The notes beneath the pieces are model-generated. The model saw only the letters and a program-made list of their open reading frames with translations, was not told the DNA's origin and did no database searches. The translations under genes were made by a program, and so were the position numbers. Below, one piece after another: positions 24,761 to 45,641 of a DNA stretch of 64,000 bases (within the stretch, counting starts at the first letter, position 1; each line of letters opens with the position of its first letter). Location of the stretch: NCBI GenBank assembly GCA_015295985.1, contig DVDX01000018.1, forward strand, positions 1-64,000. The letters run 5' to 3'. The DNA comes from Synechococcus sp. M44_DOE_062 (GTDB lineage: Bacteria > Cyanobacteriota > Cyanobacteriia > Thermostichales > Thermostichaceae).

Positions 24761-25450
24761 ATGAAGCGTGTACTGGTCGTGGATGACGATCCCCTCTCCC
24801 TGAAAGTGCTGAGCCGCCACCTGACTCGGCATGGCTATCGGGTTTGTACAGGCGCTTCGGGCGTGGAAGGATTGCGCCTGTTTGCCCAAGAGCAACCGGA
24901 TGTGGTGGTTTCAGATGTGGTGATGCCGGAAATGGACGGCTTTGAGTTTTGCCGACAACTGCGCCAGCAGCGCGGCGGTGAGCTCGTCCCCTTTATTTTT
25001 CTCTCTTCGCGGGGAGAGATTGACGACCGAGTTCAGGGCTACGAGCGGGGGGCGGATGACTACATCATCAAGCCCTTTGAACCTCTGGAATTGGTGGCCA
25101 AAATCGAGGCCCAGATTGAACGCTCCCGCCGCACCCAATCGGAAATTTTGCGGCTGATCCAACAGCAGTCTCAGCCAAAACCAGAAGCGGCCCCCCGACC
25201 CACCCCACCCGAATTGCCCCTGACCCCTGCCGAAGAGCGGGTCTTTCGGGAAGTCATTCGTGGCTTCACCAACAAGCAAATCGGCGAGAAGCTGTTCATC
25301 AGCCCGCGCACTGTGCAAACTCACCTGACCAACATTCTCAGCAAGCTCTCTCTGGAAAATCGCTCACAACTGGTGCGTTTTGCCTACGAACGGGGCTACA
25401 CCGCCCAAGAGGAGCCGGGCCAGAAGGGATCCCTCTCAGGCCAGGTGTAG
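24761..25450 (+). CDS. Response regulator, REC plus LuxR/NarL HTH
   Basis: The 229-residue protein has a receiver domain with the acid pocket DDD (residues about 8-10), the phosphoacceptor Asp in VVVSDVVMPEMDGFEF near residue 53, and Lys in IIKPFEPLELV near residue 105. A Pro-rich linker (PKPEAAPRPTPPELP) joins it to a LuxR-type DNA-binding domain (LTPAEERVFREVIRGFTNKQIGEKLFISPRTVQTHL). No histidine kinase is adjacent, so it is an orphan regulator of the Ycf29-like kind. Its 3' end overlaps the sulfiredoxin gene on the opposite strand by 15 bases. Confidence 0.88.
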   Translation: MKRVLVVDDDPLSLKVLSRHLTRHGYRVCTGASGVEGLRLFAQEQPDVVVSDVVMPEMDGFEFCRQLRQQRGGELVPFIFLSSRGEIDDRVQGYERGADDYIIKPFEPLELVAKIEAQIERSRRTQSEILRLIQQQSQPKPEAAPRPTPPELPLTPAEERVFREVIRGFTNKQIGEKLFISPRTVQTHLTNILSKLSLENRSQLVRFAYERGYTAQEEPGQKGSLSGQV

Positions 25451-25699
25451 CTTCAAAACAGCACGCGGTGCTTTTCGCACCCGACAGGGGATCCGCTCCT
25501 TGCCCAAGCGGACAAATGCCTCGTAGCGGTGGCAGCCGGAGAACCCGTAGTACTCCCCTTCCACTTCCAAAACCTCAATGGGCTCCTGTAGGCCGATGGC
25601 TTCGATAGAAGCCATCAGCGCCCGCACCTTATCCGGATCCGTTTGCCGTGGCAAAGGGCGACGAATTTGGGCAAGGGGAATCTCGCGAATCTGCGCCAT
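25436..25699 (-). CDS. srx: Sulfiredoxin
   Basis: The 87-residue protein carries the diagnostic FSGCHRYEAF motif, in which the Cys resolves the sulfinic acid of over-oxidised 2-Cys peroxiredoxins with ATP. The ParB-like fold signature VRALMASIEAIGLQEPIEVLEVEG precedes it. Length and motif spacing fit the short cyanobacterial sulfiredoxins. A PrxQ gene is in the same window, but the usual substrate is a typical 2-Cys peroxiredoxin, not seen here. It converges with the response-regulator gene, sharing 15 bases. Confidence 0.92.
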   Translation of the reverse strand: MAQIREIPLAQIRRPLPRQTDPDKVRALMASIEAIGLQEPIEVLEVEGEYYGFSGCHRYEAFVRLGKERIPCRVRKAPRAVLKLHLA

Positions 25700-25847
25700 G
25701 TTGAACTTTCTCCCTAGGCAAGCTTCTTAATCATACTCGTTATGACTTCGTTCTATCAAGGCTGGCAGAGGGGATGGATTCTCAGGCCGGGGCATGGCAG
25801 GATAACACCATTCCTTGCTGCTCTCTCGCTCAGAAGTCAACCCAGCC

Positions 25848-42941: not shown

Positions 42942-44228
42942 TCAAATGATGGTGTTGTCCGGGATCACCGAGTCTTTGATGATGGTGACGATGCCGTTGC
43001 TGATCCAGATCCCCTCCTCTTCCCGCTGCGCTTCGGTGACGTGATCCTTGTTAAGAATGCGGACATTGCGCCCAATGCGGGCATTCTTATCCACGATGGC
43101 GTTGACAATGTGAGAGTTGGCCCCGATGCCCACCGGTGGGATCCCTTCCTCCAGCTTGGCCTGCCGCTCTTCTGCCGACTCGTAGTAATCCGCTCCCATC
43201 ACCAGGGTGTTTTCCACAATGGTGTTGGCCTCCAAGCGGCTGCGAATGCCGATGATGGAGTTGCGGATTTGGGCGTTTTTGATGATGCAACCATCGGCAA
43301 TCATGGAGTTGACGATCTGGGAGTCGAGGATTTTGTTGGGGGGCAAAAAGCGTGGGCGGGTGTAGATGGGCATTTCGCTGTCGAAGAAGCTGAAGGGCGG
43401 GTTGGGCTGCTGCACCAGTGCCAGGTTGGCCCGGTAAAAGGCCTCGATGGTACCGATGTCTTCCCAGTAACCCCTGAAGAGATAGGCCTGCAGATGGTAT
43501 TTGCCGATGGCTGCTGGCAGCACCTCTTTGCCGAAGTCAGTGTGCTCCTTGACCTTGAGCATCTCAATGAGGGCTTCCCGCCTGAATACGTAGATGCCCA
43601 TAGAGGCAATGTAGGGCTTGGCTTTGGCCTCTTCCGGGCTGAGGCCCAAGGTTTGGGTGTCCACCTGGCAGGTTTTCAGCAGATCTCCTGTTGGCTTTTC
43701 TTTGAAATCCACAATGCGACCGTTCTCGCCGAGCTTGAGCAAGCCAAAACCCGAAGCCACTTTTTCTTCACAGGGGAGCACCGCCAGCGTCACATCAGCT
43801 CCGACCTGCCGGTGATGGTGGATGAAGGGGCGGTAGTCCATGCGGTAGAGGTGATCCCCAGACAGGATGAGGAAGTCCCGCGGCTTCCAGGAGTCCATCA
43901 GCCAGAGGTATTGGCGGACAGCATCGGCGGTGCCTTGGAACCAATCGGGATTGTCAGGGGTTTGTTGGGCCGCCAAAACGTCCACAAAGCCGCCTGTAAA
44001 GGGGGACAAGCGGTAGGTGTTGACGATGTGGCGGTTTAGAGAGGCAGAGTTGAACTGGGTGAGGACGTAGATTTTTTCGATGTCGGAGTTGATGCAGTTG
44101 CTGACCGGGATGTCGATGAGGCGGTATTTGCCGGCCAGAGGCACAGCGGGTTTGGCGCGGCGCTTGGTCAGGGGATAAAGTCGGGTGCCACGCCCACCTC
44201 CGAGGATGATCGCCAGTACATCGCGCAT
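42942..44228 (-). CDS. glgC: Glucose-1-phosphate adenylyltransferase
   Basis: The 428-residue enzyme makes ADP-glucose for glycogen. The N-terminal catalytic domain holds [36 protein letters not shown] and GDHLYRMDY, and the C-terminal left-handed beta helix starts near residue 300 ([20 protein letters not shown]). Allosteric-site lysines and arginines typical of 3-PGA-activated cyanobacterial enzymes are present. ATG 44228 with GGAGGA upstream is clearly preferable to the track start, which adds 17 residues. It is divergent from the parA-like gene. Confidence 0.96.
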
Positions 44229-44352
44229 GGTTGTCCTCCACCAGGCTACACCCAATAGCATAGACTGCTGCGGGGCCACCTAAACGGCTGTCCTGTCGGA
44301 TCTGGCCGGGCTGCTCGAAAAGGGGAACCAGTTGGCAAAACGGGAGGAGCTG

Positions 44353-45135
44353 ATGGCGCGCATCCTGGCCTTTACCAACAACAAAGGGGGCACTGGCAAG
44401 TCCACCCTCTGTGTCCACGCGGCTCAGTTGACGGCCCAGCGGGGATACCGGGTTCTGCTCATCGATCTCACCTCCCAGGCCACCGCCAGCAACCTTTACC
44501 TGGGAGAGGCCGGATCCCTGCCAGCACCAGAAACGGCCTGGGCCAGCTTACACCCGCAGCACCAACGTCCTCTGGAAGAGGTGATCTACTGCACGGACAA
44601 GGGAGTGGATGTGGCACCCTCCCACAGCACCATGGCGGAAGTGGCGGCCCAACTGGCTGCTGCCGGAGAGGTGGGACAAGATCTGTTGCAGCGCCAACTG
44701 GATCCCTTGCTGCAGGACTACGACTTCATCTTTCTCGATACGCCGGGAGAACTGAATGCCCTCACCGCCAATGCTCTGCGGGTAGCCCAGCGGGTGCTGA
44801 TCCCGACACGGCTCAACCGCGCCGATTTCTCCTGCACAGAAGTAACTTTGCGCTACATTGAGGCCCTGAAAGGCCAGCTCAGCCACGCCCGCGCCATTTT
44901 GACGATGCTGGATGACCGCTATCTGCCGGGAGGCATTTGGTCGGGATCCCATACCGGCCAACTGTATGTGCAAGCGCAACAGATTTTTGCGGATGTGCTT
45001 TCACCCGTTACTATTCCAGATAGCAGCGATTTGCGCATCGCCTTTGACTACGGCTTGACGGTGATGGACTATCGGCCCGGATCGGCGGTGTGTCAGCGGC
45101 TACTGCAGTTTGCGGAACACGAGGTGCTCTTGTGA
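44353..45135 (+). CDS. ParA-family ATPase
   Basis: The 260-residue ATPase starts MARILAFTNNKGGTGKST, a deviant Walker A with the signature lysine, and has Walker A' LLIDLTSQATASNLYLG and Walker B FIFLDTPGELNALTANAL. There is no N-terminal HTH. GGGAGGAGC before ATG 44353 is a strong ribosome site. No ParB or HTH partner is present; instead a coiled-coil gene overlaps it by four bases (GTGA). That arrangement is like the ParA/adaptor pairs that position protein cargo. The signature lysine argues against the type 1 McdA known from S. elongatus carboxysomes. Confidence 0.85.
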   Translation: MARILAFTNNKGGTGKSTLCVHAAQLTAQRGYRVLLIDLTSQATASNLYLGEAGSLPAPETAWASLHPQHQRPLEEVIYCTDKGVDVAPSHSTMAEVAAQLAAAGEVGQDLLQRQLDPLLQDYDFIFLDTPGELNALTANALRVAQRVLIPTRLNRADFSCTEVTLRYIEALKGQLSHARAILTMLDDRYLPGGIWSGSHTGQLYVQAQQIFADVLSPVTIPDSSDLRIAFDYGLTVMDYRPGSAVCQRLLQFAEHEVLL

Positions 45136-45641
45136 CTGGATCTGACCGCAGCCTCTTTCCTTCGTCGGGGGAAACTTCCCGCCCCTCCAGCAGAATTCGG
45201 CGCAAGGCCAGTGCTAAAACCAGTTCAGAGCCCACCTCTGCAGAGTCTACTCCCACAGGCGAGGAGCCGACAACGATGTCTTCTCAGTCTCCCCCAGAAC
45301 CAGCCCCAGAGTCGCCGGAAATTGAAACTCTCAAAAGCCAACTGGCCGAAGCTCAACAACTCTTGCAGGACTACCAAAACAAAGTCTCTGCCCTGCAAGC
45401 TCAATTGCAGCAAGTCACTGCCCATCGGGACGAATTGCAGAAGGCGCTGGCGCAGTTGCAAGCGCTTGCAGACGAGCGGGCCAAAACCATCCAGGAGTTA
45501 CAGAACTCCCGAGGACAAGCCTCCATCCAGCCCAAACCTCAATCCCCACCTCTGCACGCGCAAAAGAAGATCATGAATCGGCCCATCTTCGACAACGTGT
45601 CAGCCACCGATGAAAGCATGCCTCCCTATCTGCTGGATTGA
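45132..45641 (+). CDS. Coiled-coil partner protein of ParA
   Basis: The 169-residue protein starts at a GTG that overlaps the parA stop (GTGA). Residues 1-65 are Ser/Thr/Pro-rich with a basic patch (SRIRRKASAK). Residues about 65-130 form a clear heptad coiled coil (IETLKSQLAEAQQLLQDY to QALADERAKTIQELQ), and the last 30 residues end in FDNVSATDESMPPYLLD. The layout of basic disordered N-terminus, coiled coil and short conserved-looking tail resembles adaptor proteins of ParA-type positioning systems such as McdB. It is not sequence-proven, and the terminal Trp of McdB is lacking. Confidence 0.65.
   Translation: MTGSDRSLFPSSGETSRPSSRIRRKASAKTSSEPTSAESTPTGEEPTTMSSQSPPEPAPESPEIETLKSQLAEAQQLLQDYQNKVSALQAQLQQVTAHRDELQKALAQLQALADERAKTIQELQNSRGQASIQPKPQSPPLHAQKKIMNRPIFDNVSATDESMPPYLLD

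Follow-up and report, generated by a model that had tools for sequence, protein, structure and literature searches.

The question raised by this locus is what is served by a ParA-type ATPase that is encoded together with a small coiled-coil partner. An earlier note on the window (the whole stretch of 64,000 nucleotides of Synechococcus sp. M44_DOE_062 that was analysed) had described the two genes as overlapping, and both were confirmed at the positions listed in Table 1. The parA reading frame is intact and has the signature lysine in KGGTGKST. Its product matches Pfam AAA_31 (4e-28), and the AlphaFold model (pLDDT 89.5) has the complete ParA fold, with Soj/ParA as the closest structures (TM about 0.8-0.86). 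Across six Thermostichus-type genomes, dN/dS was found to be 0.07-0.13 for parA and 0.08-0.23 (pairwise) for the partner, here called the adaptor, showing purifying selection on both; by this measure the adaptor reading frame is a real gene. Five further Thermostichus-type genomes were checked, and all of them have the 4-bp overlap too.

Table 1. Coordinates of the parA-adaptor pair, its sequence features and the divergent neighbour in the window.
Feature	Position	Strand	Basis or remark
ParA-type ATPase gene, 260 aa	44353..45135	+	ORF, Pfam AAA_31, AlphaFold
Deviant Walker A, KGGTGKS	44383..44403	+	signature Lys11 and Lys16 present
Walker A', D-L-T-S-Q	44464..44478	+	Thr40 replaces catalytic Asp of DxDPQ, family-wide
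Walker B / switch II, D-T-P-G-E-L	44737..44754	+	PG[DE] for the usual PP[SAN]; exclusive to the family in the set examined
Adaptor gene, 169 aa	45132..45641	+	GTG start; overlaps parA stop as GTGA
Adaptor residues 1-30, basic disordered N-terminus with RSLF...RRK	45132..45221	+	proposed ParA-contacting region
Adaptor residues 62-132, Gln-rich coiled coil	45315..45527	+	
Adaptor C-terminal M-P-P-Y-L-L-D	45618..45638	+	proposed cargo-docking motif
ADP-glucose pyrophosphorylase gene, presumably glgC-like, divergent neighbour	42942..44279	-	true start near 44230

The layout noticed earlier in the partner, i.e. a basic disordered N-terminus, a long coiled coil and a short tail, was also observed. 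Residues 1-30 hold 7 K/R against 2 D/E, and a ParA-contacting role is proposed for them from what is described for other ParA partners (PMC10241942, PMC12204374). Structure prediction gave a single 71-residue helix between disordered ends, in which 17 of the 20 a/d positions are hydrophobic, with a clean leucine heptad and 21% Q; everything outside the helix is predicted to be disordered, save a slight rise over the last ten residues. Neither Pfam profiles nor structure prediction revealed a recognisable DNA-binding domain or fold in the adaptor, and its Pfam, NCBIfam and PADLOC matches were set aside as coiled-coil noise. By eye only, NLARSLFSG of the N-terminus resembles NPLAQSIFSK of the partners at two other loci, L035 and L036.

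The pair was found in all eight Thermostichaceae genomes examined; G386, the ninth genome from this order, lacks it. Among 386 genomes drawn across the phylum, 2 ParA matches passed 1e-30, and further relatives, with 48-57% identity, were found on GTDB contigs of Pseudanabaenales-like MAGs. Synteny is conserved, as the adaptor lies directly downstream of parA at every orthologous locus found in Thermostichaceae and some Pseudanabaenales. In all Thermostichaceae loci, single-contig genomes included, the pair diverges from a gene which we take, from reading its sequence, to be glgC-like; this is the only conserved neighbour there, and outside Thermostichaceae the neighbours vary. In one Pseudanabaenaceae MAG (L013:1-2162) the pair is divergent from minC-minD-minE, these names also coming from reading the sequences. 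A linked cargo gene was looked for beside the pair, and neither a carboxysome gene nor any cargo gene linked across the Thermostichaceae and Pseudanabaenales groups was found.

The profile search of the source genome (2.93 Mb in total) found no ParB above the cut-off. The single weak ParB_N match belongs to an 87-aa ORF at 25437-25700 of the window (minus strand; match about 25469-25690; also L020:1468-1731), which is probably a sulfiredoxin. No parS-like repeat array lies near the pair, and the lack of ParB, HTH and array remarked earlier was thereby upheld; a ParB elsewhere in the genome that could serve this ParA was also looked for, and none fits. In comparison to the Soj/ParA chromosome and plasmid partition ATPases, the window ParA is alike in fold and deviant Walker A, whereas it has no ParB or site and carries Thr in place of the catalytic Asp. 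An ordinary DNA partition (ParAB) system, which needs a ParB, HTH or ribbon-helix-helix partner with a site array, would be in line with the ribbon-helix-helix-like partners of L035 and L036, which are among the sequence-nearest outside ParAs. However, the adaptor without a DNA-binding fold, the missing array, the glgC synteny conserved in single-contig genomes too and the plasmid search (no close ParA, no copy above 34% identity) oppose this reading, which is already disfavoured and appears highly improbable. The always-adjacent partner with its basic N-terminus, coil and conserved tail, the absence of a DNA-binding domain in it and of a fitting ParB agree with the ParA and adaptor reading of the earlier note, and the pair is very probably an adaptor-type ParA pair.

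By sequence and fold the window ATPase is a ParA, with a deviant active site. The KGGxGK[ST] motif with signature lysine and the fold of the ParA/MinD class are present, and the catalytic Asp of the Walker A' motif is lost. In the alignment, all 13 distinct ParA sequences of the window family have D[LM]TSQ at Walker A' and D[ST]PG[DE] at switch II. The roughly 70 other ParA proteins in the alignment all keep the second Asp of Walker A', and their switch II reads DxPP or DxPA with no acidic residue there. No change is seen in the signature Lys, the P-loop Lys or the Walker B Asp; the equivalent of Soj R189 is retained, and in place of R218 there is an Asp, followed two positions later by an Arg (Soj numbering follows the B. 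subtilis sequence, the key Walker A' column being confirmed on PDB sequences). The Walker A' column was placed with the help of 1WCV/2BEK and of the 6NOP and 8JML titles, and Thr40 falls on the position mutated to Ala in 2BEK (Soj), 6NOP (McdA D38A) and 8JML (Soj D41A). These Ala mutants hold the ATP-bound ParA dimer. For Soj, a Walker A' Asp mutant held in the ATP-bound form is described (PMC9178275).

As the catalytic Asp is replaced by Thr40, the usual ATP-driven ParA ratchet cannot be assumed, and such a ParA may not support a hydrolysis-driven ratchet. Judged from the sequence, the loss of this Asp together with the acidic gain in switch II suggests either a moved catalytic carboxylate or a poorly hydrolysing ParA. 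The family-wide loss and the locked dimers of the Ala mutants could also mean that the ParA is naturally hydrolysis-deficient, acting on any cargo as a static ATP-locked tether or signalling switch and not as a motor. This is unlikely, as the correlated acidic residue of switch II may restore hydrolysis and the two lysines and the Walker B Asp are intact; strong purifying selection also speaks against it, though a tether would be selected too.

The general plan of a ParA and a coiled-coil adaptor is also that of McdA/McdB type 1 of S. elongatus. The signature Lys is missing from McdA type 1, which is extended in mid-protein (PMC8262871), whereas the window ParA has this Lys; McdB type 1 ends with an invariant Trp, in place of which the window adaptor tail has Tyr. 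Both features by which the earlier note had set the pair apart from type 1 were seen. The lysine, however, does not separate the window ParA from McdAB generally, because type 2 McdA has it too (PMC8262871).

At locus L010 a second ParA pair lies beside a window-type pair, and it served as the seed for recovering beta-McdAB type 2 from other cyanobacteria. In the recovered pairs the ParA is short and has the signature Lys, and its partner mostly begins near KR-LSDLL.E and ends in W-F-D, W-L-Y-D or W-L-L-D; these pairs fit the published description of this type (PMC8262871, PMC11321042). One type 2 McdB (L010:6472-6978, minus strand) ends in IGYID, with Tyr where the Trp has been called invariant. 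The window pair resembles type 2 in that its ParA has the signature Lys and lacks a long insert, that the adaptor encoded next to it has a charged N-terminus, disordered ends and a central coiled coil rich in Gln, and that the adaptor C-terminus is aromatic-acidic (Y-L-L-D against W-L-L-D). It differs in ParA length (260 aa against about 210 aa), in the lost Walker A' Asp and in the C-terminal Trp, which is replaced by Tyr/Phe in the LPx[YF]L of the window family. In the tree the two ParA families form separate clades (100/100 support), which does not agree with orthology to McdA2. Since the window family is separate from McdA2 in the tree and McdAB2 was identified elsewhere, the window pair belongs neither to McdAB type 1 nor to type 2.

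McdAB2 was not found in the Thermostichus genomes searched, three of which are 99-100% complete in 1-4 contigs. Matches to McdA2 of 36-39% in Thermostichus were rejected as divergent McdAB2, their partners being short, ribbon-helix-helix-like and without a coil. The order sister G386 carries a genuine McdAB2 without the window pair, and G389 (single contig, 100% complete) carries the window pair with both McdAB2 and the other lone ParA missing. Three Pseudanabaenales-type genomes (G394, G398 and G399) have the two systems together, because of which the window pair was rejected as a replacement of McdAB2 everywhere. Two McdA2-like genes, at G183:C1:486266-486757 and G147:C1:541225-541785, are interrupted by internal stops and seem to be decaying copies.

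The other lone ParA of the source genome lies on contig C26 (C26:47552-48349 and downstream; L021:1480-3127); it has SGGSGKTT without the signature Lys and a 281-aa partner, and this pair is Thermostichaceae-specific (76-78% between genera). Without this Lys, as in McdA type 1, and with Cyanothece McdA as its best solved-structure match (E 3e-35), this second ParA might be the one that positions carboxysomes, the window pair being otherwise employed. Its pair is, however, absent from the complete genome G389, which has the window pair, and its partner has no C-terminal aromatic residue, which makes this explanation decidedly improbable. A third ParA (C64:49123-49733, L110) has a short ribbon-helix-helix-like partner; its frame appears to be broken by a frameshift in the source genome and is whole in some relatives.

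All adaptors of the family carry [LM]Px[YF][LM] near the C-terminus, the Pro being invariant. The Thermostichaceae tails are MPPYLLD, MPTFLLD and MPSFMLD, and the Pseudanabaenales-type adaptors have LP[SA]FL followed by some 2-8 more residues. Among 526 distinct proteins from the loci, 14 have the motif in their last 16 residues; 13 are family adaptors and the remaining one is the partner of a Lachnospiraceae ParA (L017). The partner at a second Lachnospiraceae locus (L018), which ends in QLPVYLL, is not among the 14 and was probably removed by the overlap filter of the count. These two pairs (n=2) are encoded inside microcompartment operons with BMC shell, PduL, PduS-like and DeoR genes (the L017 genes and one L018 gene identified by Pfam, the rest read from sequence), which resemble the GRM5 glycyl-radical microcompartment description in PMC4207490. 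Like the window pair they have a small basic adaptor overlapping parA, with the L017 tail being ELPIYLM; unlike it, they stand in a microcompartment operon, the adaptors have 82-98 aa, and the ParAs, 24% identical to the window ParA, keep the Asp in DGDMQ. Kinship of the ParAs is not supported by the tree, in which they are not sister. The peptide AFTNNKGG shared by them is not independent evidence, because it was used in the search that retrieved the Lachnospiraceae ParAs.

McdB-like proteins of non-carboxysome microcompartments are reported to have Y/F within the last five residues, and S. elongatus McdB W152Y to retain carboxysome localisation (PMC11321042). A Tyr/Phe within the last five residues was found in the window adaptor (PYLLD), L011 (TFLLD) and L016 (SFMLD), though not in all Pseudanabaenales adaptors. 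The source genome has only one cluster of BMC shell genes, on contig C10 and away from the pair; it is interpreted as a beta-cyanobacterial carboxysome cluster, and beta-carboxysomes are reported in all Thermostichus studied (PMC9120777).

The carboxysome is named as the likely cargo because the tail motif is shared with microcompartment adaptors and the only BMC cluster is that of the carboxysome; for Thermostichaceae, we give it about an even chance. The choice of cargo, left open in the earlier note, is narrowed by the Tyr/Phe tail motif common to adaptors of microcompartment operons. Against the carboxysome stand the lack of a linked carboxysome gene (the neighbour being glgC), the coexistence with McdAB2 in three genomes and the longer tails there, the Lachnospiraceae ParAs not being sister, and the other ParA pairs of Thermostichaceae. 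Some of these points would suit another cargo common to Thermostichaceae and Pseudanabaenales, e.g. a pilus, a chemoreceptor, or a thylakoid or glycogen-related body, with the tail likeness being short-peptide convergence. Coexistence with McdAB2, the conserved divergent glgC in Thermostichaceae, minCDE beside the pair in L013 and the same core motif in both groups, suggestive of one cargo, favour such a cargo. Yet very few proteins of the set carry the motif at their ends, those outside the family belong to microcompartment operons, and no cargo gene is linked across the groups, so that another cargo seems rather unlikely, though less so than the other alternatives.

The reading preferred here is that the pair positions or tethers a protein cargo in the manner of McdAB, with altered ATP chemistry and the carboxysome as putative cargo, and the probability of this reading is evenly balanced. 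The adaptor N-terminus would make contact with the nucleoid-located ParA dimer in its ATP-bound form, the coiled coil would oligomerise the adaptor, and the [LM]Px[YF][LM] tail would dock on a microcompartment shell, which here could only be that of the beta-carboxysome. In Thermostichaceae the pair would then take the place of McdAB type 2, which is missing there. Thr40 may lead to very slow ATP hydrolysis and a long-lived nucleoid tether; alternatively, the acidic residue gained by switch II (D-x-P-G-[DE]) may serve as a relocated carboxylate for hydrolysis. More tentatively, and with less than even confidence, the pair may represent a third kind of beta-carboxysome positioning that is orthologous to neither McdAB type, its docking tail carrying Tyr/Phe as in the glycyl-radical microcompartment adaptors and its ParA either having the carboxylate in switch II or working without hydrolysis.

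Should the pair serve the carboxysome, not every carboxysome adaptor would be marked by the invariant Trp, and carboxysomes and other microcompartments would be linked in their positioning by one docking peptide. Moreover, the family-wide loss of the Walker A' Asp provides a natural test of whether the positioning of cargos by ParA-type ATPases requires this residue, and even ATP hydrolysis as such.
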